Made by a program: the position numbers and the translations under genes. Below, piece after piece: positions 657-40,873 of a DNA stretch of 64,000 nucleotides (positions within the stretch are counted from its first letter, which is position 1; every line of letters begins with the position of its first letter). The notes beneath the pieces were generated by a model. It was not told the DNA's origin. It saw only the letters and a program-made list of their open reading frames with translations, and did no database searches. Origin of the DNA: Bolinopsis microptera (Eukaryota; Ctenophora; Tentaculata; Lobata; Bolinopsidae); the NCBI RefSeq assembly GCF_026151205.1, contig NC_087072.1:7501-71500 (forward strand). Reading direction: 5' to 3'.

Positions 657-1212
657 CTTGTTTCCTCTGGAGCTGCGAGTAGTGAAGCAGTCGATAAAGC
701 TGAGTTCTCTGTCGTTGAACTGCCACTCTGCCCGCTCAGTGAGAACCAACTCTTGTGTCCCATCCTCCTGTGAAGATAAGATGTTATGTTGGGTTCAGAG
801 TCAGCATTTATCAATTTATCAAATATTAACTTAACCTTTTTCAACTTCGACTAGGAACTAAAAAATAAAAATACAATTAATATTTGCAGCCAAGAAGTTG
901 TAAAGACATTACCTTTGTGACAATAGTGTAGCTAGTAACCTAGTAACCAGAAGCTAGTAACCTAGTAACCAGTAGCTAGTCAAGACATTACCTTTGTGAC
1001 AATAGTGTAGCTAGTAACCTAGTAACCAGAAGCTAGTAACCTAGTAACCAGTAGCTAGTAACCTAGTAACCAGTAGCTAGTAAAGACATTACCTTTGTGA
1101 CAATAGTGTAGCTAGGTTCAGGAGGGACAAATGCAAGTTTAGCTGCTATTCTAGACGGTATGGGAGGACAACACAACAAGCAGCAGATGTCTGCGAGGCT
1201 GAACCCGTTCAT
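657..1212 (-). CDS. ABHD17: ABHD17-type depalmitoylase, first two coding exons (partial)
   Basis: Exons at 1093-1212 (40 codons, start ATG at 1212) and 657-767 (37 codons) are both in phase 0, with acceptor CAG before 767 and GT donors after 1093 and 657. Exon 1 begins [17 protein letters not shown], the cysteine cluster that is palmitoylated and anchors ABHD17 proteins to membranes in vertebrates, followed by [15 protein letters not shown]. Exon 2 holds [14 protein letters not shown] and TTRSSRGNK, matching the segment just before the alpha/beta-hydrolase core. The catalytic Ser/Asp/His part is not in the window and would lie to the left. The family removes palmitate from proteins such as Ras and PSD-95; that role here is inferred from homology. 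No in-frame upstream methionine is needed because the family starts at this MNG. Confidence 0.88.
768..1092 (-). repeat. ABHD17 intron 1 with duplicated exon-1 edge and 5' splice site
   Basis: The end of exon 1 plus its donor (minus strand CACAAAG followed by GTAATGTCTT) occurs three times: the real junction at 1093, and copies ending near 995 and 912. Between them lie runs of the 8-bp motif CTAGTAAC, which also fills introns of MED12 and SLC7 further right. The real donor is the one next to the open exon; the other two are preceded by only about 20 nt of exon sequence. Confidence 0.85.
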
Positions 1213-1444
1213 ACCACTCATAAATTCATACTTCCAACTTGCGACATAAAATCTAGAATAGAGAGTAGATGTTAAAGTTATATAAAAAACTATAGAAAGT
1301 GCTGTAAAGAATGCTGCAATTAAAATGGTCAGGGAATTCGCAGTTGTCTTTGCAGTAATTATCAATTTCGACGAATGATTTACTACAGGTGACTCAAATC
1401 GAAGTGAATCAAATGACATTGTCCATATTCTACCCTGCAAAATG

Positions 1445-2230
1445 TGTGAGGCATAACTCTTTAAAAGATACCGGGAAAAACCTAATGAAAGAAGCAGGGT
1501 GCTCAGATGTTTAGATAGAACACCCCTTATTCCTTGTCAATCCAAATGACTTCCGTGTTAGAACCAATATAACAGATATATAGTAATAAATTAATGTTAT
1601 TTTTATACAGCACCCAAAGGTTAAATAATTTAAATTTAACCCTTATGCTCAGCTGTAAATGATACTTAAATTAACGAGAGTGTGCATCTTTGCCTTAGAC
1701 AGAGGTGAAACAAGAAACTGTTCAGAAAACAGGCGTTAATAACTGTAAATAATATCGTGACTAAATAAGGCAGATGCACCTAACAAGTAGGGTTAGCAGG
1801 TTTTCTAACAGAGGACTTGAGGAAAGGATGATGACTGCAAGAAATCACAGTATGAAACTCATCAGCCTATCAAATATAAAAATCAGGATAATAAAAATGA
1901 AATTCCCTAAAATATTAAAAATTCTATAAAAATTCTATAGAAATTCTTTTGACTCCAAATATACAAACAATCTGAATACTCCAATACACAATAAAAATTG
2001 ATTGAAAAAGTTTACTGCAGAACAGTAACTGACGATAAAAATTATATCTGAAAATCCAATGTACAAGAAGAAAACAACAATTTCAAGAAAACAACATACA
2101 GTCATACCAAACAATCTCGGCAACATAATAGTAGAGACGGTGAAATAAAGAGTGGAAAAAAGATGCTCTAGTGATGAGGCATAACTCTTTGAAAGATACC
2201 AGGAAAAACTTAACGAAAGAAGCAGTTTCC
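1445..2230. repeat. Intergenic DNA with two copies of a ~55-bp dispersed repeat
   Basis: The segment starting ATGAGGCATAACTCTTT at about 1446-1500 returns at about 2172-2228 in the same orientation with roughly 85-90% identity by eye. The DNA between and around is AT-rich and shows no convincing gene. The copies are probably tails of decayed mobile elements. Confidence 0.55.
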
Positions 2231-2469
2231 AAGACCCAATCTTGATAAAGGTCTCCTTTATTAGAATTTTGTTTTTTTAGTAAAACAAAATGCAGCATAT
2301 GGATGAGACAACCTTACATTAAACATGTTGTGCTCAAATACTGACTGAAGTGCACAAGCAATTATTTAAAGTGTACCACCATATATACCTGAGTGCTGCT
2401 TTCGACACTGTAAAATTGTATACAATATAAAATAGTACAGTAAAATATCTACAAAATTTACATGCAAAT

Positions 2470-2877
2470 CTAGGAGACCTCAAAGCTCGTCTTCTGGGGG
2501 ATGAGGTTGTAGGAAACGTCTTGCAGTTCAAGATGCTGGGCTGTTGATCTTCCTCTGATTCCCCTCAGTGCAATGAGTGTACTTCTTAACAGATCAAATC
2601 TGAATCGTGTTCTGATATGATTTTTGACTTGGCTCTTGGCTTCTTTTTTGTGGTCAGCTATCATCTCAGAGACACGATCTACAAACACACTGCAGAGCGG
2701 TCCCATACCTCCGGAGGTTGTGAAGACTAGAGGGACAAATGATCCTTTCTCTGACTGAAGTACTCTCTCTTCATACAAATCTTTCTTTTCTTTCTCGTGA
2801 TCTCTATAGATTTTATCTAGTGTATTTGGGTCACAGATAGGATGTGTGACCCTGATGTCAAAGACACTTTTGATCAT
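2470..2877 (-). pseudogene. Retroelement ORF, C-terminal fragment
   Basis: A 135-residue minus-strand frame contains VLQSEKGSFVPLVFTTSGGM and, further on, a segment ending FRFDLLRSTLIALRG. This C-terminal block (GSFTPLVF-TSGGMG, then an arginine-rich stretch and a final R-G) is common at the end of retroelement polyproteins in cnidarians and other invertebrates, where it follows a reverse transcriptase. No RT domain is joined to it here. It ends where the plus-strand LINE body begins, so the two are nested or abutting insertions. The exact element family was not determined. Confidence 0.6.
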
Positions 2878-2889
2878 AGCAAATTATAA

Positions 2890-5079
2890 AAAATTATTCA
2901 AACAATAACTGGCGGGATTATAGCCTCAGTAAACCACTGCCATGGACTGTATGATGCCTGGGCGAAAGTCAGGAAAGTTAAGTGTAAACAAGGCGAAACT
3001 GACACAAAAGGGGGCACATGCCTGTGTTCTATCTGCTGTAATAAAAGAAACCGTTATGATGACTACAAAGAATATAGAAAGGCTCTAAAAAAGGTTCGTA
3101 AAAAGGCTGTATCTGAATATTATTCTGACAAGTTTCTTGAAACTCAGGGAAACTCCAAGAAAACCTGGGAACTTATAAATAAAATTCGTGGCAAACAGAA
3201 ACGTGATATCAGACCTATATTTACCATAGACAATGAAAAGATAACTAATCGCAGAGTTATAGCGAATGAATTCAATAAGTATTTTGTATCCCTAGCATCT
3301 AACCTTAATGCAGCCTACACAGAACTAGGAGAGATACAAATAAATCAGCTTCCAAGTTTCTGTGACCTCTTACCTAAATCGAATACAGCTAATATATATC
3401 TACATGACTGCTCACCTGAAGAGGTGGCTAAGATCATATCGGAACTTCAGAATGGCAAGGCTAGTGATATACCAGTACATATAGTAAAGGCAGTATCAGG
3501 CATAATTAGCCCACTACTATCGGTTTTGTATAACGAATGTATGCAACAGGGAGTTTTTCCAGACGACCTAAAAGTAGGTAAAATAAGTCCAATATATAAG
3601 AAAGAAAATGCTGAGCTTCTTGAAAATTACAGGCCTATCTCAACCTTAGCGATATTTGGTAAAATACTTGAGAAAATCATATTCTCCAGGCTTTACAGTT
3701 TCTTTCAGTCACAAGGATTATTATATGAAAATCAATATGGCTTCAGAAAAAATCATTCGACAAGCCATGCACTTAACTTCTCTGTCGACTACATTGAAAA
3801 ATCACTAAGAGATAAAAATCATGTACTAGGCATCTTCATTGATTTAAGTAAAGCTTTTGATACAATCTGTCATGATAAACTGCTTAAAAAACTGAATGAT
3901 TATGGAATTCGAGGGACTGCAAATAAATTAATAGCCAGTTATCTCTCTAATAGACAGCAATATGTTTCAGTACTTGGAGAAGAATCCGAAAAACTGTCTG
4001 TTATATTTGGTGTGCCTCAGGGGTCAGTATTAGGTCCCTTGCTTTTCATTATCTACATCAATGAAATATATAGAGTATCAGACCTAGGCAAGTTTATACT
4101 TTTTGCCGATGACACCAACATATTTGTTGTAGATAAATGTATAAAAACACTTTACTGCAAAGCTAACAAAATTCTTAAACTTGTTCATCAGTATATGAAG
4201 AGTAACTTGCTGCATATCAACACAAAGAAATGTTGTTATATCCACTTTAAACCGAACTGTAGAAATGAACCAGATTCAAACACCAATGAATTAGAACTGA
4301 CACTGAATAATATAATAATTAAAAAGGTAGAGGAAACTAAGTTTCTTGGAGTCATTATTGACCAAAAACTGAACTGGGATGCTCACTTAAGAGCGTTAAA
4401 TCGTAAATTGAAATGTGAGATTGGTAGACTATGTGGAATTAGACGCTGTGTACCTAAAAAACTATATAAGGACCTGTACCACACCCTTTTTGAATCACAC
4501 CTATGTTATGGAATATCTGTTTGGGGAGGTGTATCAAATAATAAACTAGAAGCCATATTTAAAACACAAAAGAAATGCATAAGAATTCTCTTTGGTGATA
4601 ATGATGCGTACTTCAATAAGTTCAAAACATGTGCCAGAGTAAGGCCTATCACTAGGGATAAGACCGGTAAAGTTATCAAGCAGATGTTAGGCAAAGATTT
4701 CTTTGAACTAGAACACAGTAAACCAATCTGTAACGAGTATAACTTCCTGACTGTCCACAATCTTCATAAGTTGCACTGTTTACTGGAAATGTTTAAAATT
4801 AATAAGTTCCAATCACCAGTCTCAATGTTCTCTTTATTCAACAGGTCACCAAGACGAGACAACTACTTCATCCCACCCACTCCATCCTCACTATTCATCT
4901 ACCAATCAACCAGTATTTGGAATCACTGCCGTAAGTCAACGAGTGAAATAGACTTCTCCACTCCTATCAGTATATTCAAGAATAATATTAAGAAAGCTTT
5001 GTTAGAACTACAATCTAAATATGACAGACAACTATGGTGCAGTTACAACTTTGATGCAAATGAATTATCATTGAAATAG
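2890..5079 (+). CDS. Non-LTR retrotransposon ORF2, reverse transcriptase (5' truncated)
   Basis: One uninterrupted frame runs from about 2890 to the TAG at 5077-5079, some 730 codons. The first ~180 codons are the linker typical of Jockey/CR1-type ORF2 (including GNSKKTWELINKIRGK). RT motifs follow in order: ENYRPISTLAIFGKILEK, the fingers/palm block with FIDLSKAFDT, GVPQGSVLGPLLF, and the catalytic FADD box in KFILFADDTNIFV. The C-terminal domain ends with IWNHCRKSTSEIDF. The apurinic-type endonuclease that should precede is absent, so the copy is 5' truncated, as usual for target-primed reverse transcription. The frame is intact, so the insertion is young. It would reverse-transcribe its own RNA if full length; this copy cannot be autonomous. 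Confidence 0.9.
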   Translation, partial: KIIQTITGGIIASVNHCHGLYDAWAKVRKVKCKQGETDTKGGTCLCSICCNKRNRYDDYKEYRKALKKVRKKAVSEYYSDKFLETQGNSKKTWELINKIRGKQKRDIRPIFTIDNEKITNRRVIANEFNKYFVSLASNLNAAYTELGEIQINQLPSFCDLLPKSNTANIYLHDCSPEEVAKIISELQNGKASDIPVHIVKAVSGIISPLLSVLYNECMQQGVFPDDLKVGKISPIYKKENAELLENYRPISTLAIFGKILEKIIFSRLYSFFQSQGLLYENQYGFRKNHSTSHALNFSVDYIEKSLRDKNHVLGIFIDLSKAFDTICHDKLLKKLNDYGIRGTANKLIASYLSNRQQYVSVLGEESEKLSVIFGVPQGSVLGPLLFIIYINEIYRVSDLGKFILFADDTNIFVVDKCIKTLYCKANKILKLVHQYMKSNLLHINTKKCCYIHFKPNCRNEPDSNTNELELTLNNIIIKKVEETKFLGVIIDQKLNWDAHLRALNRKLKCEIGRLCGIRRCVPKKLYKDLYHTLFESHLCYGISVWGGVSNNKLEAIFKTQKKCIRILFGDNDAYFNKFKTCARVRPITRDKTGKVIKQMLGKDFFELEHSKPICNEYNFLTVHNLHKLHCLLEMFKINKFQSPVSMFSLFNRSPRRDNYFIPPTPSSLFIYQSTSIWNHCRKSTSEIDFSTPISIFKNNIKKALLELQSKYDRQLWCSYNFDANELSLK

Positions 5080-6540
5080 GTTAATTAAGTAAACTTAATC
5101 ATATGAGTAAACCACGGTGTTATTGCAAAGAACCATGACAAGGGTATCAGACCTATATTAATCTAAGAGACGAAACAAAACGAATCATCATACAACAAAT
5201 TTTAAAATCCTGCGGCACAGGATCCTGTTGTTGTTTTCCTACTCTGCCTCTCCCAAACCCCTCTCTCCTTCTCCTTTCTTCAGGTTTATTCTTCAATTTT
5301 CTAAATTAGATAGCAGATATATTTTCTTTCGAACGCGAATGTAGTAATGGCATTATACATTATTTGGTATCCTATGTATGTTGTGTTTAGTGTTTGCTAA
5401 CTAGGTATGTGCTATATATTTTGGAGAATTTTGAGACTCACGACGTCTCGTCCCATGGGTTGAGTTGTAAGCTGAGTATATGTTCAAATCGCCTTACTTC
5501 GTATGGTGAAACATCGACAGGTATGCCTTAGCCTTTGGGACGAGTGTTTGCCCACCGGGGATCCAAAAATTTGATCACCATGAACATTACTTTGACACGT
5601 GAACTTATCAAACGACTGTAATGATTCCATTAAATTTTCTTAGTACATTTAGCTAGTTTATTGTAGATACACACGATCACAGAATAGAAGAGCACAATTG
5701 GGCTCTTTGTTCTGCGGCCGAGTTTCCTCGGTGGGCCGACAGGTTTTTGTTGTGTAGTAGTGCTGGGGAAAAACACGCTTTAAATATCAATGAATGTAAA
5801 TATTGTTAATTGACATTAGTGCCACAGTTTCTGTGGTAAAAACAAATTTATGGTTAAACATTATATATCGTAGAAGGGCATGATTTACGCACATCACCAA
5901 GCATCTGGATGGATAATTAACACACAAGGATAAACTGACCTTTAAACATGACCACCAGCAATATCATATAATCATAGCTCCGAAATAAATAAATTGCTCT
6001 ACATAGAAACATCTGGCCTGATCTTATCACATTGTGGTCCCCAGGGGTTCGGTAAAGCCCTTACAGGCAACTGGGTCCTTTTACCAGCCACAATTAAACT
6101 AGTCATGCCAGTACTGTCATAAACTGTAACCAACTATTTAAAAATAAGATATCTTTTGCTAGAATTTTAAATTGTAAGCCATAGAGCAATCTTCTCAATT
6201 TTAAAATTTAAATATAACATTTTACCCTAACTATGATGTGGTGGCATTTCATACTTAACTAAAATTCAACTTTGAAAGTCAATAGATTATTAGTCACAAC
6301 AAAATTATAGTTTAAGACATCCATTTTGCATTGTGTATCCAATATTAGAATTTATGATATGTATTGATTGAATAATTGGTAATAAATTTAACTTTTGTTT
6401 TATTAAATATACACATAATTTTCACAATGACCCTATATAAAAACAACCCTTCAAAAAAATCAATATATTCCCTATCTCAAATATTGGGAGAAACATTTGA
6501 ATATTAACCTTGGCCTTGTGGCTCCAAATTCAAATCTAAA
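5080..6540. other. Intergenic, no gene recognised
   Basis: Follows the retrotransposon ORF, so the first part is probably its 3' untranslated region. The rest is AT-rich, with no open frame of interest on either strand, no tandem array and no recognisable RNA gene. Confidence 0.5.
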
Positions 6541-6544
6541 CTGT

Positions 6545-6793
6545 TTATATCTACAAAATTCTTTCTTGCACCTCTGTCCCCCGTAGAGAAATCACTGTTG
6601 TTCTTAGGATTTCGAAACGCTTCCTTATGTATCCAACAGCATCTGAATACCTTTGCCCTGTGTGGTATTCCATCTTGCTAGCAAGCTTCTTTACTAGTCT
6701 TTCAGCTTCACCACCCATTCCACCAGATGTTGAGAAAACTAACGGCGTGAAGCTTCCTTTCTCTACTTCCAGAACCCTTGCATTGTATCATGG
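6545..6793 (-). pseudogene. Second retroelement C-terminal fragment of the GGMG family
   Basis: The minus strand encodes ARVLEVEKGSFTPLVFSTS followed by GGMGGEAERLVKKLA and RYSDAVGYIRKRF. This is a close relative of the fragment at 2470-2877, without the rest of an element. Homology begins and ends abruptly. The two copies differ enough to be separate old insertions. Confidence 0.6.
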
Positions 6794-6836
6794 CAAATTA
6801 ACATATTGAGATTGGGATTGAGGGAATTGCCCTAAA

Positions 6837-7172
6837 ATGGCTCACCAGCTTCATCCGTGGTCGTTGTCAAAAAGAGAAAAAGTCAAGGTACAAACACTCC
6901 TGCTAAATTTTAAACTGCTCCATGGGCTAGCACCTTCATACCTGTCAAAAATTGTCAAGTACAATTCCAGTGGTGGCAGAGATGTGTCTCTTCATTGCCC
7001 TATAAACAGTCCACCCAGAGCCTTCTCTTCATCTGCTCCAAGATTATGGAACAATCTTCCTCTAGAAATCAGGAAATGTGTGAACATCATGAACTTTAAG
7101 GAAAAACTAAAATATCACCTGTTTATAGAAAGTCACCTGTTTTTAGAAAGTCATTTGATATATATTGAGTAA
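6837..7172 (+). pseudogene. LINE ORF2 C-terminal fragment
   Basis: The frame reads TLLLNFKLLHGLAPSYLSKI, then PRAFSSSAPRLWNNLPLEIR and FKEKLKYHLF. This is the standard tail after the RT of CR1/L2/Jockey-type ORF2 proteins (FKxLHGLAPxYL ... APxLWNxLPxxIR ... FKxxLKxxLF). No RT lies upstream, so it is a severely 5' truncated copy. It belongs to a different subfamily from the 2890-5079 element. Confidence 0.75.
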
Positions 7173-10499: not shown

Positions 10500-11307
10500 T
10501 CATCGCATACAACAGCAGAGTCCACGTAAAGCCCACTTGGAGTAGTGAACATTCTCGTTGAATATGTCTGAAAAGATTAAGTTATAATACGGGAACAACT
10601 TACATTTCAAGAATACGGCCACAGTAAAACAGCTTGGGGAAAGGGAAATCGCCGAACAGTAAATCGACTATCGAGGTGTACACTGTACGGCAAATGGAGG
10701 GTATGACGCGATCTCAGTCAGATTAAAGTACTCGGGGTAGGGCTTATTGTTTATGGAACTTTATGGTTCACATTACATGGTTTCCTCTCCGCACAGTATT
10801 GGTTCTTCATTAGTGGTAACGGTTCACAGTTATGCACAAACGCTCAAGTAAGGGGGAGATGAACGAAGTAACGAGTCTAACAAGCTTTTCGAGATGAAAA
10901 ACCCAATTCTAAGCCTCTCAAAGGATCTTGTGATATCAAACAAAATATTTACTGGGCGGCGCTCAGCCTGTCATTCCGCCGAATATTTATTTATTACTGT
11001 CACCAAGATGTAATTAGATCGAACGCAGAAATTAGATCGAACAGGTTCGATCTAGGAATTAGATGGATATTTTCACAAATTTTTGGGAAATGGGTTTTAA
11101 TGTTTATTTAAATAAGAAGTTAGAGTGTTTTAGAAAACAGTGTGTGAAGAGCTTACCTAAGAAGAAGAGAGGTTTGTCGTCCATAGCACGTGTAGAGTAG
11201 ACGGGGCACTGGTACAGACAGTGGGTCCTGTCCGTCTGACTCGGTCCTGCTGTCACGTGGATTACCGGGAGCTGGGTGAACTTGGACTTGGGGGCCACAT
11301 CCTGCAT
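10500..11307 (-). CDS. Dynein heavy chain, last two exons (C-terminal domain)
   Basis: Exon 11157-11307 reads from ATGCAGGATGTGGCCC to a GTAAGC donor and encodes QLPVIHVTAGPSQTDRTH then LYQCPVYSTRAMDDKPLFFL, matching the conserved PVI-h-A...YxCPVYxT strand pair near the end of dynein heavy chains. One base carries over into exon 10500-10567 (acceptor TTTTCAG), encoding DIFNENVHYSKWALRGLCCC then MR and a TGA at 10500-10502. This is the usual dynein end (...W-LRGVALL-C). The phases fit exactly. Dynein heavy chains are ~4,500-residue AAA+ motors; this is the microtubule-distal C-terminal cap. The axonemal or cytoplasmic paralogue was not resolved. Upstream exons are not found before the divergent gene at 15.2 kb, so this is either a partial copy or a gene with the Ig-VWD locus nested in an intron. 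Confidence 0.8.
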
Positions 11308-14300
11308 CTGGGGGGACTTAATATTTAGTGTTAGTTAAGGGGGTAGTGTTAGAGGTAGTGTTAGGGGGCCACATCCTGCATCTGTGGGGACTTAATATTT
11401 AGTGTTAGTTGAGGGGTAGTGTTAGAGGTAGTGTTAGGGGGCCACATCCTGCATCTGTGGGGACTTAATATTTAGTGTTAGTTAAGGGGTAGTGTTAGAG
11501 GTAGTGTTAGGGGGCCACATCCTGCATCTGTGGGGACTTAGTATTTAGTGTTAGTTGAGGGGGCCACATCCTGCATCTGTGGGGACTTAATATTTAGTGT
11601 TAGTTGAGGGGTAGTGTTAGTTGAGGGGGCCACATCCTGCATCTGTGGGGACTTAATATTTAGTGTTAGTTGAGGGGGTAGTGTTAGGGGGCCACATCCT
11701 GCATCTGTGGGGACTTAATATTTAGTGTTAGTTGAGGGGGTAGTGTTAGAGGTAGTGTTAGGGGGCCACATCCTGCATCTGTGGGGACTTAGTATTTAGT
11801 GTTAGTTGAGGGGGCCACATCCTGCATCTGTGGGGACTTAATATTTAGTGTTAGTTGAGGGGTAGTGTTAGTTGAGGGGGCCACATCCTGCATCTGTGGG
11901 GACTTAATATTTAGTGTTAGTTGAGGGGTAGTGTTAGTTGAGGGGGCCACATCCTGCATCTGTGGGGACTTAATATTTAGTGTTAGTTGAGGGGTAGTGT
12001 TAGTTGAGGGGGCCACATCCTGCATCTGTGGGGACTTAATATTTAGTGTTAGTTGAGGGGTAGTGTTAGTTGAGGGGGCCACATCCTGCATCTGTGGGGA
12101 CTTAATATTTAGTGTTAGTTGAGGGGTAGTGTTAGTTGAGGGGGCCACATCCTGCATCTGTGGGGACTTAATATTTAGTGTTAGTTGAGGGGTAGTGTTA
12201 GTTGAGGGGGCCACATCCTGCATCTGTGGGGACTTAATATTTAGTGTTAGTTGAGGGGTAGTGTTAGTTGAGGGGGCCACATCCTGCATCTGTGGGGACT
12301 TAATATTTAGTGTTAGTTGAGGGGTAGTGTTAGAGGGGGCCACATCCTGCATCTGTGGGGACTTAATATTTAGTGTTAGTTGAGGGGTAGTGTTAGAGGG
12401 GGCCACATCCTGCATCTGTGGGGACTTAATATTTAGTGTTAGTTGAGGGGTAGTGTTAGAGGTAGTGTTAGGGGGCCACATCCTGCATCTGTGGGGACTT
12501 AATATTTAGTGTTAGTTGAGGGGTAGTGTTAGTTGAGGGGGCCACATCCTGCATCTGTGGGGACTTAATATTTAGTGTTAGTTGAGGGGTAGTGTTAGGG
12601 GGCCACATCCTGCATCTGTGGGGACTTAATATTTAGTGTTAGTTGAGGGGTAGTGTTAGAGGGGGCCACATCCTGCATCTGTGGGGACTTAATATTTAGT
12701 GTTAGTTGAGGGGTAGTGTTAGAGGTAGTGTTAGGGGGCCACATCCTGCATCTGTGGGGACTTGATATTTAGTGTTAGTTGAGGGGGTAGTGTTAGAGGG
12801 CCACATCCTGCATCTGTGGGGACTTGATATTTAGTGTTAGTTGAGGGGGTAGTGTTAGAGGTAGAATTAGGGGGCCACATCCTGCATCTGTGGGGACTTA
12901 GTATTTAGTGTTAGTTGAGGGGGTAGTGTTAGAGGTAGTGTTAGGGGGCCACATCCTGCATCTGTGGGGACTTAATATTTAGTGTTAGTTGAGGGGGTAG
13001 TGTTAGAGGTAGTGTTAGGGGGCCACATCCTGCATCTGTGGGGACTTAATATTTAGTGTTAGTTGAGGGGGCCACATCCTGCATCTGTGGGGACTTAATA
13101 TTTAGTGTTAGTTGAGGGGGTAGTGTTAGAGGTAGTGTTAGTAACTTGGACTTGGGGGCCACATCCTGCATCTGTGGGGACTTAATATTTAGTGTTAGTT
13201 GAGGGGGTAGTGTTAGAGGTAGTGTTAGGGGGCCACATCCTGCATCTGTGGGGACTTAATATTTAGTGTTAGTTGAGGGGTAGTGTTAGAGGTAGTGTTA
13301 GGGGGCCACATCCTGCATCTGTGGGGACTTAATATTTAGTGTTAGTTGAGGGGGTAGTGTTAGAGGTAGTGTTAGGGGGCCACATCCTGCATCTGTGGGG
13401 ACTTAATATTTAGTGTTAGTTGAGGGGTAGTGTTAGAGGTAGTGTTAGGGGGCCACATCCTGCATCTGTGGGGACTTAATATTTAGTGTTAGTTGCGGGG
13501 GTAGTGTTAGAGGTAGTGTTAGGGGGCCACATCCTGCATCTGTGGGGACTTAATATTTAGTGTTAGTTGAGGGGGTAGTGTTAGAGGTAGTGTTAGTTGA
13601 GGGGGCCACATCCTGCATCTGTGGGGACTTAATATTTAGTGTTAGTTGAGGGGGTAGTGTTAGAGGTAGTGTTAGGGGGCCACATCCTGCATCTGTGGGG
13701 ACTTAATATTTAGTGTTAGTTGAGGGGTAGTGTTAGAGGTAGTGTTAGGGGGCCACATCCTGCATCTGTGGGGACTTAATATTTAGTGTTAGTTGAGGGG
13801 GTAGTGTTAGAGGTAGTGTTAGGGGGCCACATCCTGCATCTGTGGGGACTTAATATTTAGTGTTAGTTGAGGGGTAGTGTTAGAGGTAGTGTTAGTTGAG
13901 GGGTAGTGTTAGAGGTAGAATTAGGGGGCCACATCCTGCATCTGTGGGGACTTAATATTTAGTGTTAGTTGAGGGGTAGTGTTAGAGGTAGTGTTAGTTG
14001 AGGGGTAGTGTTAGAGGTAGAATTAGGGGGCCACATCCTGCATCTGTGGGGACTTAATATTTAGTGTTAGTTGAGGGGTAGTGTTAGAGGTAGTGTTAGT
14101 TGAGGGGTAGTGTTAGAGGTAGAATTAGGGGGCCACATCCTGCATCTGTGGGGACTTAATATTTAGTGTTAGTTGAGGGGTAGTGTTAGAGGTAGTGTTA
14201 GTTGAGGGGTAGTGTTAGAGGTAGAATTAGGGGGCCACATCCTGCATCTGTGGGGACTTAATATTTAGTGTTAGTTGAGGGGTAGTGTTAGAGGTAGTGT

Positions 14301-14437
14301 TAGTTGAGGGGTAGTGTTAGAGGTAGAATTAGGGGGCCACATCCTGCATCTGTGGGGACTTAATATTTAGTGTTAGTTGAGGGGGTAGTGTTAGAGGTAG
14401 TGTTAGTTGAGGGGGTAGTGTTAGAGGTAGAATTAGC
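11283..14437 (-). repeat. 3.1-kb minisatellite spanning the dynein 3' splice site
   Basis: About 43 occurrences of a block whose minus-strand form is AAGTCCCCACAG followed by ATGCAGGATGTGGCCCCC, joined by variable AACACTACC / CTCAACTAACACTA spacers. The first occurrence is the real intron-exon junction at 11308/11307 (there with CCCCCCAG). Every other copy repeats the acceptor and the first ~18 nt of the exon. One copy near 13140-13160 carries a longer piece of exon (AACTTGGACTTGGGGGCC). Stretches with 63-66 nt periods stay open in one frame for 230 codons (11789-12481), an artefact of the period. Confidence 0.92.
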
Positions 14438-28600: not shown

Positions 28601-28605
28601 GTGTT

Positions 28606-28883: not shown

Positions 28884-31800
28884 GGAACTGCCGGACGGGA
28901 CGGACTGGTGGAGAATGTTGTCTCTGTTCGTGATCCAGCTGCTCAGATACCAGTGTTTCAGTCTCTGGTGGCTGATATACTACGTCATCCTGCCCTACCT
29001 CTACAAGTACTCCGAGTACAAGTGGCCCACCAACTGTCACGTGGCTTACCTCATGATAGCGCTCTTTACTCAGGTACTTACCTCATGATAGCGCTCTTTA
29101 CTCAGGTACTTACCTCATGATAGCGCTCTTTACTCAGGTACTTACCTCATGATAGCGCTCTTTACTCAGGTACTTACCTCATGATAGCGCTCTTTACTCA
29201 GGTACTTACCTCATGATAGCGCTCTTTACTCAGGTACTTACCTCATGATAGCGCTCTTTACTCAGGTACTTACCTCATGATAGCGCTCTTTACTCAGGTA
29301 CTTACCTCATGATAGCGCTCTTTACTCAGGTACTTACCTCATGATAGCGCTCTTTACTCAGGTACTTACCTCATGATAGCCCTCTTTACTCAGGTACTTA
29401 CCTCATGATAGTGCTCTTTACTCAGGTACTTACCTCATGATAGCGCTCTTTACTCAGGTACTTACCTCATGATAGCGCTCTTTACTCAGGTACTTACCTC
29501 ATGATAGCGCTCTTTACTCAGGTACTTACCTCATGATAGCGCTCTTTACTCAGGTACTTACCTCATGATAGCGCTCTTTACTCAGGTACTTACCTCATGA
29601 TAGCGCTCTTTACTCAGGTACTTACCTCATGATAGCGCTCTTTACTCAGGTACTTACCTCATGATAGCGCTCTTTACTCAGGTACTTACCTCATGATAGC
29701 GCTCTTTACTCAGGTACTTACCTCATGATAGCGCTCTTTACTCAGGTACTTACCTCATGATAGCGCTCTTTACTCAGGTACTTACCTCATGATAGCGCTC
29801 TTTACTCAGGTACTTACCTCATGATAGCGCTCTTTACTCAGGTACTTACCTCATGATAGCGCTCTTTACTCAGGTACTTACCTCATGATAGCGCTCTTTA
29901 CTCAGGTACTTACCTCATGATAGCGCTCTTTACTCAGGTACTTACCTCATGATAGCGCTCTTTACTCAGGTACTTACCTCATGATAGCGCTCTTTACTCA
30001 GGTACTTACCTCATGATAGCGCTCTTTACTCAGGTACTTACCTCATGATAGCGCTCTTTACTCAGGTACTTACCTCATGATAGCGCTCTTTACTCAGGTA
30101 CTTACCTCATGATAGCGCTCTTTACTCAGGTACTTACCTCATGATAGCGCTCTTTACTCAGGTACTTACCTCATGATAGCGCTCTTTACTCAGGTACTTA
30201 CCTCATGATAGCGCTCTTTACTCAGGTAATTTTTTTTTTCTTCTTTTTTTTTCTTCTTCTCATATGCAACCTACTAAAACCAATGGAGCCCTCCCCGGGG
30301 TCATTCCTCTCAGGTAATTTCTTTTGAAACTTCCATCAAATAATGCACAATTATACAACAAGGGAACCTGATTGAGATCAATGGTGACGAAGAATTTTTA
30401 GGCTGGGAAAATGCTCGGACTAATGATATCACTGACATTAATTTAATCGTTTCGCTGACATTAGCGCACAAGTTAACGGATTTACGGAATTATCTGGAAG
30501 CTGATATTCAACAACTTTTTCTATTGATATTCAAGACCAAATAGCAAAGAAAAATATTAAAAAGTCCACAAATAAAATTTGGATGCTGCATAACCAGGAG
30601 AGAGGTGACAACAATAAGAGATATAATAGAACCTTGCAAACTAATTATATCAATTATATACTAATTATATTATATATAATTAGTATATAATTGATATAAT
30701 TAGTTTGCAAGGTTCTAACATATCTCTTATTGTTGTCTTTTGATATATTATATCAAATATATACTAATTATATCAATTAAACCACTTACCACCGACCGAT
30801 TTAGAAAACCTTTATCATTTGGCTTCGTCAGAGTTTTCTCGGCACTTTACCGAAAAAAAAACCAGCCACGTAACTCTTACCGTTTTCTTGATTAGGCCGC
30901 TCGGAAATTACACGCGCACACACACACACACTCTGAGATTATTGTTTAAGATACTTTTTGCAAAAATACTTTTTGCAAAAATACCATTTTTTGTCATAAA
31001 CAACCTTATCGTGTCTGCCAAACGGGCATCACAAGTCAACTGGGTCAATAAAGAATAATAATTTATTATAATAATTTATTATAATAATAATATATTATAT
31101 TATAATATAATATATAATAATAATGATAATTTAGTTGTTCTACTCTGTGGCATCTAGATTACGAGTTACTGCTGACTTCATGCAATATTCCCAATATTCT
31201 ACTGACTAAATACTAATTACACAGACAATTTAGGTTTAGTTGACCCGTTTAAATGATAGCAAATTTTCCGGATCTTAATTTTGATTTGAAACTTTCATCA
31301 AATAATACAGAAATATGCAACATGGAAACTTAAATGAAATCATAACGACAAAGAATGTTTATGCTGCGAAAATGCTTGGAGTTGGACTGGCATTTTACTG
31401 TAATATATAGTTAATTGATAATAGTAAATAGTAATTATAACCATTAAGTTTACCATCATGCTCCAAAACCGTTTATGTTTCAGATTTCGCCAAAAAAATC
31501 AGGAAAAAAGTGTCCATCAAATTTATGTTTAAGTCTATAATACAAATCTTTACAATCCAAATATCGCCTATTCCAAATTCACTAGATAACTACATTTTAT
31601 GTTTAAGTCTATACAAATCTTTACAGTCCAGATATTATCGCCTATTCCAAATTCACTAGATAACTACATTTTCATACACTACTAGTTACCATAGTTACAC
31701 TACTAGTTACCATAGTTACACTACTAGTTACCATAGTTACACTACTAGTTACCATAGTTACACTACTAGTTACCATAGTTACGCTACTAGTTACCATAGT

Positions 31801-34800
31801 TACACTACTAGTTACCATAGTTACACTACTAGTTACCATAGTTACACTACTAGTTACCATAGTTACACTACTAGTTACCATAGTTACACTACTAGTTACC
31901 ATAGTTACACTACTAGTTACCATAGTTACACTACTAGTTACCATAGTTACACTACTAGTTACCATAGTTACACTACTAGTTACCATAGTTACACTACTAG
32001 TTACCATAGTTACACTACTAGTTACCATAGTTACACTACTAGTTACCATAGTTACACTACAAATTCACTAGACACCATATAAGTGTTGTCATGGTTACCA
32101 CTAGATAACTACATTTTCAGATTGAATACCCGGAGACGGAACACGTGGACGACTCTATCATCTCCCACTCCGCATTCCGGCACCTTGATGCGGACAGGAG
32201 GGCTCTGAAGCCGCTCCGGTTCGCTACCATGCTGAAACTACTGATCAGGAACAGCACTGTGGACCAGGAGATACCGCCCTCCCACAGTTAGTCATACGCT
32301 TCCTCAAACTCTTCAAATAGCAGTCGGTTAACCACAAAAATTAACATTTAATGACAGGGTTTTCTAGAGGGCACCCACCCCCCCCCCCCCCCCAAAATAA
32401 CGCTTGTTTCCCCTCCCCTCCCCCCAAAGTAACGCTTGTTTCCCCTCAGAGCACCTGAAATAACCCTTGTTTCCCCTCAGAGTACCTGAAATAACCCTTG
32501 TTTCCCCTCAGAGTACCTGAAATAACCCTTGTTTCCCCTCAGAACCCCCAATGCAACGCTTGTTTCCCCTCAGAGCACCTCAAATAACGCTTGTTTCCCC
32601 TCAGAGCACCTCAAATAACGCTTTTTTCCCCTCAAAACCCGCCCCCCCCCCCCCCCAAATAACGCTTGTTTCAGAGCACCTGAAGCCGATGGCAGTGTTA
32701 AAGAGGATCTGCTCCCAGACCTGGGTGCCGGAACTGTGTCTGTCCACCCCGGAGAAGTTAGTGTCTATCAACTACCTGGCAGATAAGGAGATTACACCCC
32801 ACAACGCTCAGCTCCTGCTCCATCTCATTTGTAATCCCCAATCTACTGACATGCCTTCTACTGACCCTACCGAACTTATCGGCAACATCATCAAGGTTTA
32901 TACTTTAAACTTAGTTACCTAGTAACCTAGTAACTCAGTAACCTAGTAACTCAGTAACCTAGTAACCTAGTAACCTAGTAACCTAGTAACCTAGTTACTA
33001 TGAAGAAGTAGTAACATCTCATTTGTAATCCTCAATCTACTGACATGCCTTCTACTGACCCTACCGAGCTTATCGGAAACATCATCAAGGTTTATACTTT
33101 AAACTTAGTAACCTAGTAACCTAGTAACCTAGTAACTCAGTAACCTAGTAACCTAGTTACTATGAAGAAGTAGTAACATCTCATTTGTAATCCCCAATCT
33201 ACTGACATGCCTTCTACTGACCCTACCGAGCTTATCGGAAACATCATCAAGGTTTATACTTTATAATATCTTGTTTTAGGTTTGTCATATTGTGACCTCT
33301 ACATCAAGATTCGAGAAGGTTACTGGGTCTATATATATAAAGAAGACAACCAAAATGTTTGCAACGGCCTTATTATATTATTATTAATATACAACTTATG
33401 AAGCGTTAGCAACACACGAAATTGCCAATAATTCGATATGTTTCACGATAACTCATAATATTTCAATTTGTCAATAATCGCGGTGGTTACGAGCTCGAAA
33501 AAAAGTCGACTAGCATACTAATAGTAGTGAATTACAAGGATATTTGAGTCTACATCATCTTCAATAAATTTATAATATACTTATATAATATAGGTGCGGC
33601 CAACTAAGCTAAGTAAAGTAGTAATATCCTGTATTAGCTTGGTAATATCCTGTTAAAATCGTGTAACCTGTTGTACCCCCCCCCCCCCCCGAACCTGTTG
33701 TACCCCCCCCCAACCTGTTGTACCCCCCCCCCCCCCAACCTGTTGTACCCCCCCCCCAACCTGTTGTATCCCCCCCCCAACCTGTTGTATCCCCCCCCCC
33801 AACCTGTTGTATCCCCCCCCCCCCAACCTGTTGTACCCCCCCCCCCAACCTGTTGTATCCCCCCCAACCTGTTGTATCCCCCCCCCCCAACCTGTTGTAT
33901 CCCCCCCCCAACCTGTTGTATCCCCCCCAACCTGTTGTATCCCCCCCCCCCCCCCCCCAAACCTGTAGTATCCCCCCCCCCCCCCCCCCCCCCCAACCTG
34001 TTGTACCCCCCCCCCCCCCAACCTGTTGTACCCCTCAGAATATGGACATGTGGACCATGAGGTCAGCTCACCTGAAAGTAAGGTTGATAAGAGTAAGGAG
34101 CAAGGAGAATAACGAGGGGGAGGAGGAGGAGGCGGCTACCCTCAAACTCATCACTGACGCTGTCGTCTGTACTCTGGGACATCTCCTCACCGAGGTAGGG
34201 TTTAAGGGAACAATAATAATTTTAATATAGTTGCCTGGTAACCTAGTAACCTAGTAACCCAGCAACTCTATTAACCTACTAACTCAATAACTAATTTAAA
34301 TAGTAATAATATAATCAGTAGTCAATGACTAGACATGGTTATTGCGATGAAAAGTTACATGGAATGATGGCGTCTGGGCTTGGGAGCAGCTCACACTCAT
34401 AGTACATTACATTAATGCCCTCTGAATACCATCAGGCTAGCTAAAGAAATGAATATGTTAATAGTAGTAGTATTAGTAGTAGTAGTAGTTATAATAGTAG
34501 TAGTAGTGTGTAAAATCCGGATTGGAGTATTATTTATGAGTCGTATGGTTGTAATGTATTCTGTGTAAAATGATCTTTATCCCGGTTGTTGCGACAAGTA
34601 AAAATGCTCTTATTAGGGAAAGGAGATTACTCGACGTTTCAATGTAACTACATCGTATTCATAAACTCAAATTATTTGTTATATAGTAGTGTTGAAAGTA
34701 CTACTAGTAGTAGTAGTGTCACGTGACATCTAACCTGGTTCCCTACAGATAGCACGCGGAGGGTGTAAGAACGCAACTCTCTGGCTGCTCCCCACATTCA

Positions 34801-34848: not shown

Positions 34849-34865
34849 GTTAGTTCGTTAAAACG

Positions 34866-35096
34866 GGGCGTGGTCCGGACTCTAGTCCGGGACTCTAGTT
34901 CGGGACTCTAGTCCGGGACTCTAGTTCGTGACTCTAGTTCGTGACTCTAGTTCGTGACTCTAGTTCGTGACTCTAGTTCGTGACTCTAGTCCGGGGCTCT
35001 AGTTCGGGACTCTAGTCCGGGACTCTAGTTCGGGACTCTAGTCCGGGACTCTAGTTCGTGACTCTAGTCCGTGACTCTAGTCTGGGACTCTGGTCC
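34866..35096. repeat. 13-bp minisatellite after the last visible MED12 donor
   Basis: The unit GACTCTAGTCCGG alternates with GACTCTAGTTCGG/GTG, about 16 copies, starting 18 nt after the donor at 34848/34849. Confidence 0.88.
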
Positions 35097-36545
35097 GAAT
35101 TATAACAGGGCGTATTACAAAATAAATGCAATAAATATTTATTGAGGTGAACTTCCGTAGAGAGCAAGTTTTCGGTTATTATTATTACTGATGTAATATC
35201 TTATATCGTATTATATATAACTGTATGTATGCGAGACGATATACATATGTATGTATATATAATTATATATATATAAATTGTGGGTGGCGTCGTCTGCTGA
35301 CAGTGCTCAATCGGCAAGCTGAGAGCTAGATACAGTTGTCACTGATGATATCATGGTTTGGTATCATGATTGAAACATTTGTCTGACTCAACCGTTCGTT
35401 TCAATTTCTATATATTATATATATAATATATCCATACCATTTTACTGACTCCACGGCATCAACTTTAACACGACTTTCCGCAAAAACCGTAAAAGATATA
35501 CAACTTAAAATAAAAAATTTGCCAAGGAATAAGAATTTTAGTGCCCAAAATTTGGACCCCCAAGTGGTGTAAAAAAAGCGAATTAAATAGGCAATAATTA
35601 TTTTAGTCTCTTGAGTCTTGACTTCATTTTAGGGTTGGACGGGTTCGTGCTAAATATAATGGTATTATTATAATAAATATAATGGTATTATTATAATAAA
35701 TATAATAGTATTATTATAATAAATATAATAGTATTATTATAATAAATATAACGGTATTTTTATAATAAATATAATGGTATTATTATAATAAATATAATAG
35801 TATTTGGTTTCTTGGTGTGTTTTGAGGGATGTTGCTCAAATTAGGAATTTCCAAATTTAATACAAGCTACGGCAACAAATATTGATATTGCAGAATCATG
35901 CAAACTCCTCTCGAGAACATTTGTTCGGTAATTAAATAATAATATTAAATATATTCAATCCGCAGAAGTGTACAGTTTATCAAAATGGCTGAGGAATGCA
36001 CAGATCTATGATCATATCATCGATATACGTTTCTTCAAACATTTCAACCTTCTTCGTCACTTTCTACGGTATGGTTCTGAAAACGATCCTTTGGGTTAGA
36101 CGGGTTCCTGCTAGTCTAATATAATACATAAAGTAATACATGATCCATAAATCTCCTAATTCTGTCTTCTGGGATCTCTCTTATGGAAATTGAAATCTGT
36201 ATATTCTCTCACATCTTGTGAAATAAAACTCTCTTTATTAGTGAAACAAAAATCAATTAATAACAACTCAAATTATGTACATAAATATGGATAGATCTTT
36301 ATTCATTCCACACAAGCCCCTATTTCTGTTCATCCTGCAGAAAAAGGGGAATCTTTAAAAATAGACTAAATTTGTCGTTCTTAATGTAAATGGAATGAAA
36401 AATGGTCTCGAAAAGTCGAAAAATTTGACTTAAGTTGTTGTAGACTAATAATTTGCGAAATTTGTTACTAACATTATGGTAACCAAAATTCGCGTGAAAA
36501 TTCCCAGTACAATATGTGTAATTAATCAAACTAAAATGATTAACA
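35097..36545. repeat. AT-rich interval with 23-bp array at 35655-35812
   Basis: About seven copies of AAATATAATGGTATTATTAT plus AAT. No MED12 exon was found here, although the exon ending at 34848 stops in mid-codon. A short ATG-less frame near 35965-36098 was not recognised. Confidence 0.6.
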
Positions 36546-36549
36546 AAGA

Positions 36550-39500
36550 TTATCTGACAGAACTTTCGCCTGTGTCGTCCAACTTAATCTCCTTCAAACT
36601 CAACCGTTTCTGCTTCTCCGCGGTAATCTTGGAGAAGAAGATCCCGTACCCGAAGTAGATTATGAGCCCGACAATGCAGTAGATAACCAGCTGTTTCAAG
36701 GCTACCACCTCCAGATGGAAGAGAAGCAGGAGGTTTACAAAGACTGAGAACCCCTGAACGAAGGGCTTTCCCGGGCTTTTAAAAGACAGTGTCCCGTCCT
36801 CCTCTTGTGCCTTTAAAGGAATCTTGCATCTGATGAGAGTGAGACTGACTATCATGATGATAGCAAGGACCACCTCTGAAACAATCACTGCAGTGGACTG
36901 TTCGAGGAATGCTGTGAGGAATGCCAACACGATGGTGGCCAGCAGGAAGACACACATGAAGATGATGAAGAGATGTTTTCTGGCGTGAGTCTTCTCTGCG
37001 GTCAGTGGAGTTTCCTCGGTTTCTTCCATGTCTGGGTCCGTTAGGTCGTAGGAGAGGATCATTACTGCTAACGCTGTGATCACAAACACTGTCAGGGTTC
37101 CACCAGAGATCTGGAGAGGTTTACGTTAGCAGGTTACTAGGTTACCAGGTTACTAGGTTACCAGGTTTCTAGGTTACCAGGTTACTAGGTTAGCAGGTTA
37201 CTAGGTTACCAGGTTACTAGGTTACTAGGTTACCAGGTTACTAGGTTAGCAGGTTACTAGGTTACCAGGTTAGCAGGTTACTAGGTTACCAGGTTACTAG
37301 GTTAGCAGGTTACTAGGTTGCCAGGTTACCAGGTTACTAGGTTTACGTTAGTTACAATATCTTAACATATGGTGGCAATCAATAATCAATATCCATCATG
37401 TTTATAGAAATATGGATCATGGACGGAAATATTCTATGGTCAAAAATCAAGATTACAAGTAAGATAAAATCATCTTATTATCTCATAAACAACTCTAAAG
37501 TAACCTCAAGTAAGTAACTCACCATATGACTGAGGGTATCGAACTCGTACACGATACTGGACAGCATCCCCACCACACTGCACACCACCACGTTCCACAT
37601 GGGTACCTGAGTCCTCTTGTACACGCTGTTCAGGAAGGGGAACAGTAGGCCGTCCTCCGCCACGGAGTACACTACGCGGACTACTGTAGTTACAGTGCAG
37701 AGTCCGCAGGAGAATACTGTGAAGATCAGCCCGGCTGTTACTACGTACTGCGGTAGTGTCAGTCCTGGGGGAGACAGGTTCAGTTACTATGGTTACTCTG
37801 TAATTCACATGTTGGTAGTGTCAGTCCTGGGGGAGACAGGTTCAGTTACCATGGTTACTCTGTAATTCACATGTTGGTAGTGTCAGTCCTGGGGGAGACA
37901 GGTTCTGTTACCATGGTTAATCTGTAATTCACATGTTGGTAATGTCAGTCCTGGGGGAGACAGGTTCAGTTACCATGGTTACTCTGTAATTCACATGTTG
38001 GTAGTGTCAGTCCTGGGGGAGACAGGTTCAGTTACCATGGTTAATCTGTAATTCACATGTTGGTAATGTCAGTCCTGAGGGAGACGGGTTCAGTTACCAT
38101 GGTTACTCTGTAATTCACATGTCAGTCCTGGGGGAGACAGGTTCAGTTACCATGGTTACTCTGTAATTCACATGTTGGTAATGTCAGTCCTGGGGGAGAC
38201 AGGTTCAGTTACCATGGTTAATCTGTAATTCACATGTCAGTCCTGAAGGAGACGGGTTCAGTTACCATGTTTACTCTGTAATTCACATGTCAGTCCTGAA
38301 GGAGACGGGTTCAGTTACCATGGTTACTCTGTAATTCACATGTCAGTCCTGGGGGAGACAGGTTCAGTTACCATGGTTACTCTGTAATTCACATGTTGGT
38401 AATGTCAGTCCTGAGGGAGACAGGTTCAGTTACCATGGTTACTCTGTAATTCACATGTCAGTCCTGAAGGAGACGGGTTCAGTTACCATGGTTACTCTGT
38501 AATTCACATGTCAGTCCTGGGGGAGACAGGTTCAGTTACCATGGTTACTCTGTAATTCACATGTTGGCAATGTCAGTCCTGGGGGAGACAGGTTCAGTTA
38601 CCATGGTTAATCTGTAATTCACATGTTGGTAATGTCAGTCCTGGGGGAGACAGGTTCAGTTACCATGGTTACTCTGTAATTCACATGTCAGTCCTGAGGG
38701 AGACGGGTTCAGTTACCATGGTTACTCTGTAATTCACATGTCAGTCCTGAGGGAGACGGGTTCAGTTACCATGGTTACTCTGTAATTCACATGTCAGTCC
38801 TGAGGGAGACGGGTTCAGTTACCATGGTTACTCTGTAATTCACATGTCAGTCCTGAAGGAGACGGGTTCAGTTACCATGGTTACTCTGTAATTCACATGT
38901 CAGTCCTGAGGGAGACAGGTTCAGTTACCATGGTTACTCTGTAATTCACATGTCAGTCCTGAGGGAGACAAGTTCAGTTACCATGGTAACTCTGGGGGAG
39001 ACAGGTTCAGTTACTCTGTAATTCACATGTTGGGACTGTGTTTCCAATGGAATATTTGAGTCTGCAGGTTCAAGGTTGGTGATGTATGTATAGTGTGCAA
39101 TGTGTATACTTATTACTAATATAGAGATAAGCTTACCTTTACGTTTGAGAGATCCAATAAGACCTGTGTTTCCCCCGACCTCATACCACGGTTCAATGAA
39201 AGCGATGGAGAAAGCTGTTACCACGTACAGAACCAGCACTATCAGGAAGGAGCCCATGGTAGCCCGAGGGAGATCTCGTTTAGGGTCGACGGACTCCTCC
39301 GCTAGAGTCACAACTGACTCCAGTCCCACGAATGCGAAGAAAGCAGTCCCCGCTCCCGTCATGATGCCGCTGAACCCGAACGGAGCGAACCCCGTCCTTC
39401 CGTCCGCTGGATTAACCACTCTGGAGAGGTTAGCAACGTCTCCATTCACCAGCGCCACTATGTTGAAGGTTAGCAGAGATATCGCAGAGACCCCAGCTAT

Positions 39501-40873
39501 GGCAATGTTCAGATAGGACACTGTCTTTATTCCTGCCATGTTGATAGCCATGAAGAGGAGCATGATACCAATAGCGATCAGATCTGTGTGTAGCAACCAG
39601 TCAGGAAAGTTTGAGCTCTGCCATTCTTGGACAGTCCCATTAATGAGGAACTTGTCGATGTTGTCAGACAGTCCCAGGGTTAACATTGGAGCCTGTATGA
39701 TCAGCTCCCCGATCAGGAAGAAACCGGAGATGGCAGCTGCGAGTTCTCCCATTGAGAAGTAAGTGTAAACGTAGGAGGAACCAGTGCAGGAGTACCTGGT
39801 GTTAAAATATTGTGAGGAATCATGTGACCTAGTAACCTAGTAACTTAGCAACCTAGTAACCTAGTATTTAATAACCTAGTAACTTAGTAACCTAGTAACT
39901 CAGTAACCTAGTAACCTAGTAACTATGAAGAAGTAAGTATAAACGTAGGAGGACCCAGTGCAGGAGTACCTGATGTTAAAATATTGTGAGGAATCATGTG
40001 ACCTAGTAACCTAGTAACCTGGTAACTTAGCAACCTAGTAACCTAGTATTTAGTAACCTAGTAACCTAGTAACCTAGTAACTCAGTAACCTAGTAACCTA
40101 GTAACTATTAAGAAGTAAGTATAAACGTAGGAGGACCCAGTGCAGGAGTACCTGATGTTAAAATATTGTGAGGAATCATGTGACCTGCTCGAACAGCTTT
40201 AGTCAAGTTTAAAATATATTACAGAATGGGACAGAATATAATAGATAAATATACTTTTTTTTTTTCTTTTTTTTTTTAAGAGAGGCTGGGCCTGGTTGGC
40301 CCACGAGAGGATAAATATACTGTACTAGAATATGATAAAATGTTTCGCCGATTTCATTATAATTTCAAGTTAAATGTAAGATGTGAGTTGTTGTTTCTTC
40401 AAACGCCTACCTGGCAGCAAGATCACTGTAGCATAAAACGGACAAGGCAGCAGCTAGACCGGATATCAGATAGCTGATACAGGTGGCAGGTCCTGCCATC
40501 GACTGCACAATCGCTGGGGTTATCACAAATATCCCTGCAAAATGATTTGTTGTTTTAATTAATTAATTAATTAATTAAAACAACACCTTGTTCATCTGCA
40601 GGAAACATTTTTACATTTCACGGATCAACTTTTATTTATATACATATCACTTCCTGTATAAGCGTTATTAAAGTGAGTCTGCAGTAACTAAAGTAAGTGG
40701 TAAGAACCTGTGAACCTAGTAACCTAGTTACCTGCTCCGAGCATGTGGGCAATACCCTGAACAATAAGAGGGAACAGAGTCAGACATCTCTTGAGCTCTG
40801 TCTTTCCTCCTGTGTCTAACTTCACTTGGAACAGTCTCTCTAATACACCAGGTGCTCTGAAGTTGTAACCCAT
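36550..40873 (-). CDS. SLC7-family cationic amino-acid transporter (complete, five exons)
   Basis: Exons in transcript order: 40732-40873 (ATG at 40873), 40411-40534, 39137-39795, 37523-37764, 36550-37110. All borders are AG/GT; phases join without gaps, giving 1,728 nt or 575 residues plus stop. The product starts MGYNFRAPGVLERLF and then KRCLTLFPLIVQGIAHMLGA and GIFVITPAI, the CAT-type first helices with the G-hG-GIFV substrate motif. Later come MAGPATCISYLISGLAAALS, FAFVGLESVVTLAEESVDPK (TM6 region with the FvG-E signature) and YSVAEDGLLFPFLNSVYKRT, all CAT/APC-superfamily marks. About 12 membrane helices are expected. It would import arginine, lysine or related amino acids at the plasma membrane; substrate is inferred. 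Only 62 bp separate the ATG from a Penelope-like insertion, so the promoter may have been displaced. Confidence 0.92.
37118..37345 (-). repeat. TTACTAGG/TTACCAGG minisatellite next to SLC7 exon-5 acceptor
   Basis: About 27 copies of 8-bp words AGGTTACT / AGGTTACC / AGGTTAGC directly upstream (minus strand) of the CTCCAG acceptor at 37111. The same 8-bp word appears in ABHD17 and MED12 introns. Confidence 0.9.
37752..39020 (-). repeat. ~60-bp minisatellite repeating the SLC7 exon-4 3' splice site, about 20 copies
   Basis: The minus-strand unit contains CTGTCTCCCCCAG followed by GACTGACA(CTACC), that is, the acceptor at 37765 and the first 8-13 bases of exon 4, joined by ACATGTGAATTACAGAGTAA and CCATGGTAACTGAAC. 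Two unit lengths (with and without a TTACCAACATG segment) alternate. Many copies change CCCCCAG to CCTCAG or CTTCAG, still acceptable acceptors. Confidence 0.93.
39796..40185 (-). repeat. Two extra copies of the SLC7 exon-3 start and acceptor
   Basis: The first ~45 bases of exon 3 with its acceptor (ACACCAG/GTACTCCTGC) recur at about 39937-39990 and 40112-40165, with ATCAG in place of ACCAG, separated by CCTAGTAA 8-bp runs and the segment TGAGGAATCATGTGACCTAG. Confidence 0.88.

Follow-up and report, generated by a model that had tools for sequence, protein, structure and literature searches.

How do introns come to be filled with tandem copies of the edges of their own exons, splice sites included? 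The question is raised by a 64,000-nucleotide stretch of the ctenophore Bolinopsis microptera (C1:7501-71500, hereafter the window), taken from a 264.65-Mb assembly in which scaffold C1 measures 26,206,493 bp; the genome table of Schultz et al. 2023, in PMC11797021, gives 265 Mb, 13 chromosomes, the largest of 26.2 Mb, and 38.5% GC. Here, sequences resembling ABHD17, a dynein heavy chain, MED12 and an SLC7-type cationic amino acid transporter carry minisatellites at their exon-intron junctions, and a preliminary description had held that the tandem unit contains the splice site at eight of these. We find this at seven, three donors and four acceptors, where the unit includes the splice site together with about 8-86 exon bases; at the eighth, MED12 acceptor 34039, the array only abuts the exon. 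We interpret the arrays as mirages in the sense used for amphioxus, that is, as tandem duplications made in place that include a splice site or end within ~15 bp of one, and put the probability of this reading at roughly two in three.

Decoys, defined as copies that keep the splice dinucleotide with at most 4 mismatches in 16 bases, total 106 by this rule, and 110 when four recognised by eye at MED12 acceptor 32675 are added. They were counted on gene models rebuilt from the DNA, with 23 junctions modelled within the window; a codon-based de novo exon finder proved too weak for short exons and served for scoring only. MED12, on the forward strand, holds three of the seven junctions. Its modelled exon at 28884..29073, whose frame runs on into the next exon and which lies outside the human MED12 match, ends in a donor mirage (29045..30228) built of a 32-bp unit, 29 exon bases plus GTA, in 37 copies that are 99% alike; donor 29073 has 36 decoys with 33 exon bases (29 per 32-bp unit). 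Human MED12 supports exon 3 (32675..32895) and exon 4 (34039..34194), a single unbroken match (E=3e-8) covering their join, and the two upstream exons, including modelled exon 2 (32121..32286), were placed by open frames and continuity. Both edges of exon 3 carry mirages. Beside acceptor 32675, a 31-bp unit with CAG followed by AG(C/T)ACCT is repeated at 32395..32685 (1 decoy by rule and 4 by eye, 8-10 exon bases), and at donor 32895 the last 75 exon bases, the donor and a AACCTAGT array recur in 3 copies (32821..33263; 2 decoys, up to 86 exon bases). At acceptor 34039 the rule yields 0 decoys; the (C)nAACCTGTTGTA array there (33665..34034) ends 4-5 bp short of the exon, and its unit lacks AG.

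The remaining genes lie on the reverse strand. The SLC7 model (36553..40869) appears secure, with Pfam AA_permease_2 at 7.8e-36 and five exons (40869-40732, 40534-40411, 39795-39137, 37764-37523 and 37110-36553) placed by a purpose-written spliced aligner with three foreign proteins (P0001-P0003): P0003 (55% identity) yields all eight splice borders, while P0002 (70%) also yields the last six of them and P0001 (94%) the last four. At acceptor 39795, 47 exon bases plus a AACCTAGT array form a 182-bp unit (39751..40186; 2 decoys, 47 exon bases); at acceptor 37764, a 53-bp unit (37764..38994) supplies 21 decoys, with a median of 8 and a maximum of 13 exon bases. A further array, of 16-bp units (37125..37343), stops 14 bp from acceptor 37110 and is flanked by a 13-bp direct repeat, CTAACGTAAACCT. 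In ABHD17, the coding part of exon 1 (1093..1220, donor after 1093) was taken from our own translation, and spliced alignment with a human sequence joins it to further exons at 767-657 and 399-308. Its donor mirage (903..1115) consists of three copies of 23 exon and 13 intron bases, spaced by GGTTACTAG-type filler and read by Tandem Repeats Finder (TRF) at periods of 79 and 101; there are 2 decoys with 27 exon bases in common, mismatches allowed. The gene stops after three exons: spliced alignment over window 1-767 and C1:1-7500 (L009) found no credible later exon up to the scaffold start, and the start of C1 is a truncated or misplaced end. The dynein-like acceptor, 11307, has 42 decoys (median 20 exon bases) in an array at 11290..14436 whose units of 49-147 bp carry CAG followed by ATGCAGGATGTGGCCCCC. 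Assignment of its exon (11157..11307) to the dynein heavy chain C-terminus is doubtful, since the Dynein_C score of 24.8 bits falls under the family cut-off of 25.7; a genome search with Dynein_C, the one dynein domain searched, listed no match at this exon or close to it, and against PDB at a loose limit the best hit (E 0.008) was a 4,730-residue chain labelled CFAP57, with dynein heavy chains at E 0.076 and weaker.

The origin and turnover of such arrays can be followed in a second copy of all four sequences at C1:755-920 kb, 83-99% identical, with ABHD17 and the dynein-like sequence inverted and MED12 and SLC7 not. It may be the leftover other haplotype or a segmental duplication, and the similarity searches that describe it score best candidates only. 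Arrays are present in one copy and missing from the other at three sites: an SLC7 donor, the ABHD17 donor and the near-acceptor SLC7 array. The SLC7 exon 4 tail with its donor (37513..37607, reverse strand) is single in the window and fourfold in the second copy, at C1:777768-777875, 777929-778023, 778078-778172 and, with the full exon, within 778227-778526, with AACCTAGT arrays between. At the ABHD17 counterpart (C1:913183-914055, 93-99%) there is a single donor, where the flanking matches overlap by 36 bp; the two extra donor copies of the window are probably absent from it. Likewise, within the SLC7 counterpart (C1:776458-780949, long matches 83-95%, exon 4 96%) the array by acceptor 37110 is missing and one 13-bp flanking repeat is left, the matches overlapping by 13 bp.

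Where both copies carry an array, its length differs. With up to 3 mismatches, the MED12 32-bp unit occurs 37 times at home, 26 times at C1:761344-762175 and nowhere else in the genome (63/63), and the dynein-like unit, with 43 hits at its home locus, has its other 6 at C1:907044-907352 (49/49), though more diverged copies would escape this search. The 53-bp array at SLC7 acceptor 37764 has 22 units past the true site in the window and 7 at C1:778565-778933. The MED12 donor-32895 block, with 3 copies in the window, appears in about a dozen at C1:765.5-767.6 kb, a figure drawn from 12 array clusters and six extra placements in the second MED12 copy (C1:764761-773208); for ABHD17 the numbers are 3 and 1. 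For the SLC7 39795 block, too, the second copy shows repeated matches. Both copies hold an array of 13-bp units, apparently longer in the second, at a distance of 24 bp from the donor of MED12 exon 5. These differences in presence and copy number therefore establish that the arrays arise in place and turn over fast.

Whether arrays favour junctions was measured in nine genes, three in the window and six encoding myosins. The myosin genes were picked via Pfam without regard to repeats: five of ~eleven listed gene regions, read as six stretches, were selected for compactness and intron number, and an intron-poor gene added from the search loci supplies 5 of the 64 myosin introns (128 junctions). 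The window contributes 10 introns, which exclude the ABHD17 introns after exon 2 and the dynein intron, whose other end is unbounded. Arrays lie within 15 bp of a junction in 13 of 35 myosin cases against 3.8 expected, a count that none of 20,000 shuffles reached (p about 5e-5), and in 7 of 17 window cases against 1.4 expected. Over seven cut-offs (0, 5, 10, 15, 20, 30 and 50 bp), p is at most 0.0027 in the myosin set and 0.0055 in the window, and it stays at or below 0.0055 across TRF scores of 40, 50, 80 and 120, with one array per intron, and after removal of the most divergent myosin, on C11 (then 10/30 near a junction against 3.15 expected); smaller groups split by array uniformity give p up to 0.048. 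In introns >600 bp, 5 of 22 arrays are near a junction (1.11 expected), and so are 6 of the 15 arrays that are >=95% uniform across both sets (1.05 expected). For comparison, when length-matched intervals are drawn at random in 200 kb elsewhere, an array lies within 15 bp on the inner side at 386 of 37,844 edges (1.0%), as against 11 of 126 non-spanning myosin edges, myosin introns holding 1.9x as many arrays per interval. In these nine genes, arrays are nearer to splice sites than uniform intronic placement would put them, so that the earlier suggestion of a placement other than random holds up in six genes chosen independently of it. A clear myosin mirage was found at the acceptor in locus L036, with a 72-bp unit in 3.1 copies and 33 exon bases. 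One 1,944-bp myosin intron (L037, C3:11060001-11070000) consists almost entirely of an 8-bp unit repeated in 240 copies, and this array comes within 40 and 13 bp of the two splice sites.

Several points weigh against reading the arrays as mirages. Under a null that seeds duplications uniformly over the pre-expansion intron and its edges, boundary-spanning arrays number 2 against 2.7 expected in the myosin introns and 4 against 2.5 in the window introns by TRF borders, which miss MED12 32675 and 32895 (6 with both added); since these counts match unbiased seeding, spanning alone is no striking excess. Of the two myosin arrays that span a boundary, one is exonic, a repeat of 2.1 copies that ends at a donor of the most divergent gene, and a copied 20-mer (up to 4 mismatches) is found in its own intron at 1 of the 128 myosin junctions. 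What the preliminary description took to be a placement far above chance thus survives as clustering within 15 bp, and not as an excess, or even a common occurrence, of arrays across the boundary itself. The search for splice-like motifs at array edges in the 200 kb elsewhere was equivocal: they are about twofold enriched at strong arrays (21 against 10.1 at score 120) and barely so at score 50 (28 against 24.5), with a coding-like exon side at 0 of 15 strong-array edges, compared with 38.5% of true exon edges, and (above 3) at 1 of 20 at score 80. Among the window genes, acceptors are raised (6 against 1.8) and donors are not (1 against 1.5), while in the myosin stretches both halves are raised (12 against 4.6 and 14 against 5.4). 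The 15-bp limit was chosen once the distances had been seen, the statistics come from nine genes, exon borders were placed from genomic DNA and protein comparisons, and the second copy is known as coordinates and identities only. Two further comparisons were dropped. Exact 16-mer copies within 4 kb, seen at 4 of 23 junctions and set against intron positions (50%) and exon positions (3.5%), made a poor test because these introns are half array, and the SLC7 family was unsuited as a second set, 13 of the 19 listed matches being nearly full length in one frame.

Much of this would follow if duplications arose anywhere in a minisatellite-rich genome, with no bias towards junctions, and those at junctions survived, the introns being short when the arrays formed. 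Minisatellites indeed make up 16% of the 200 kb elsewhere, the median myosin intron is 236.5 bp, the spanning counts are those of unbiased seeding, and, had each array been bordered at the outset by no more than 100 bp of intron, 11.7 of the 35 myosin arrays would be expected near a junction, close to the 13 seen, a figure that also counts against the preferred interpretation. However, arrays that are >=95% uniform in introns >600 bp are still found at junctions (4/12, 0.26 expected), and all three presence/absence differences between the two copies fall across a junction or 14 bp away from one; the intron interior was compared at one stretch, where a 23-bp array falls inside a match common to both copies. 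We consider unbiased duplication possible but unlikely. A bolder reading, that splice-site DNA of this ctenophore is a germline duplication hotspot, where staggered breaks or template switching no more than about 15 bp from an exon edge copy that edge, often along with AACCTAGT-type filler, is one that we advance only tentatively and regard as doubtful.

For the mirages themselves, we envision that a stretch of 13, 36 or about 95 bp near a splice site was duplicated first. Filler of 8-bp repeats of the AACCTAGT type, which often lies between the duplicates and separates exon-edge copies at four places (ABHD17, MED12 32895, SLC7 39795 and the SLC7 exon 4 donor of the second copy), would come from repair of a staggered break or from template switching, and later growth and shrinkage would proceed through slippage or unequal exchange. 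The duplications would be tolerated because the authentic site remains joined to its exon: the mRNA would be unchanged and the intron merely longer, since use of a decoy would bring in a stop codon. This was checked at three junctions: read-through at MED12 donor 29073, at MED12 donor 32895 or from either decoy of SLC7 39795 meets a stop within about ten codons past the exon-like part.

The filler also invites another explanation, in which an 8-bp repeat of the AACCTAGT type is mobile or inserted during repair and duplicates its target site, much like introners or interstitial telomeric repeats; the copied exon edges would then be that target. Genome-wide, the motif accounts for 2,609 exact 20-mers against 0 for a reversed control, the filler sits between the exon-edge duplicates at the four places named, and at the empty sites 13 and 36 bp are found duplicated on the flanks. 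The 21-bp interior array of MED12 intron 1 (31675-32060) likewise recurs on many other chromosomes, in long matches at 85-99% identity, dispersed in contrast to the private mirage units. Set against this, MED12 29073 and 32675 lack such filler, the flanking duplication varies in length (13, 36 and about 95 bp), neither element ends nor coding capacity were noticed, and, of 75 array units in the 200 kb, 8 contain a GTTAC/GTAAC core where 5.4 are expected. By the introner yardstick of one sequence in many genes, the evidence divides, the two mirage units searched being private and the 8-bp filler dispersed. On balance, insertion of the repeat seems rather improbable. As a general rule the GTTAC/GTAAC core was rejected (in the myosin stretches, 3/19 against 1.1); it is strongly enriched in the window alone (8 of 39 array units against 2.6). 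Telomere-like healing was rejected too, the first 360 bases of C1 not being telomeric. Elsewhere, large clusters of AACCTAGT-type arrays lie at C4:13.63-13.65 Mb and C4:16.12 Mb, in opposite orientations.

That long-read misassembly or an unpurged haplotig made or inflated the arrays is very unlikely: the window is close to a scaffold start that does not begin in telomeric sequence, a second copy exists, and 265 Mb were assembled where k-mers predict 254 Mb, but several mirages occur in both copies at different lengths and one stands in an unrelated gene on C11. It is equally hard, if not harder, to believe that the decoys tune splicing as a site buffer or as competing donors, for although they keep the splice dinucleotide with most of the consensus, and differ from the true exon mostly by synonymous changes (at the two junctions compared, 5 codon sites differ synonymously and 1 codon, at the block end, is changed, as expected if the true exon evolved under selection and young decoys did not change), the early stops and the widely different copy numbers in the two gene copies speak against a function.

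The window holds other repeats. An element of 3.5 kb at 2905-6406 contains a reverse transcriptase frame (PF00078, 9.8e-37) and has at least about 30 copies at 93-99% identity; from these features it is a predicted young element resembling non-long-terminal-repeat retroelements. A large element at 44938-57196, which we take to be Polinton/Maverick-like, includes an integrase-plus-chromodomain frame at 47687-48754, and related TAAGATTGAGTGTAGCGC arrays are found at 44938-45309 and 56710-57196. At 58800-64000, repeated cysteine-rich exon-like stretches with many small indels look by eye like uncorrected sequence.

The kind of array described here is already known, as an oddity of amphioxus with somatic instability at the Adh locus; the present analysis adds the animal, the crowding of arrays in one stretch, their empty sites and a measurement of how they cluster at junctions. 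In amphioxus, mirages are described as boundary-spanning minisatellites in Adh (Adh3), troponin C, globin (Gb6 and Gb9) and PGBD5 genes, with haplotypes that differ in length and splicing that is apparently normal (PMC3087553, PMC3902484). The ctenophore arrays likewise carry the exon edge with its splice site, and the kinship proposed in the preliminary description is borne out by this shared unit structure in a very different animal. They differ from the amphioxus cases, as those are described there, in belonging to another phylum, in occurring at seven junctions of one 40-kb stretch and at one in a separate gene, in having up to 42 decoys and 8-bp filler arrays inside several units, and in having their closeness to junctions compared with a null. 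Tandem genomic duplication (AGGT) and double-strand-break repair, as routes of intron gain, similarly involve local duplication with splice-like sequence and direct repeats flanking an insert (PMC3443670), whereas in the ctenophore it is existing introns that lengthen. Internal tandem repeats in human segmental duplications also vary in copy number between recent paralogues at exon-intron boundaries (PMC2812944); as described there, they change transcripts and can form new introns, unlike the ctenophore arrays, which are known from DNA. Among the matches listed in a full-text search of open-licence literature, we found no report of mirages in ctenophores.

If splice-site DNA were indeed a hotspot, its seeds would drive intron lengthening and maintain a large standing stock of decoy splice sites, which could feed intron gain or shifted exon borders. 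The arrays also pose a splicing puzzle, namely what singles out one donor when up to 37 near-identical copies are on offer. In several ctenophore genes, empty sites and differing copy numbers between two copies of the same gene make the birth and turnover of mirages directly observable, and they offer a testable route for intron growth.

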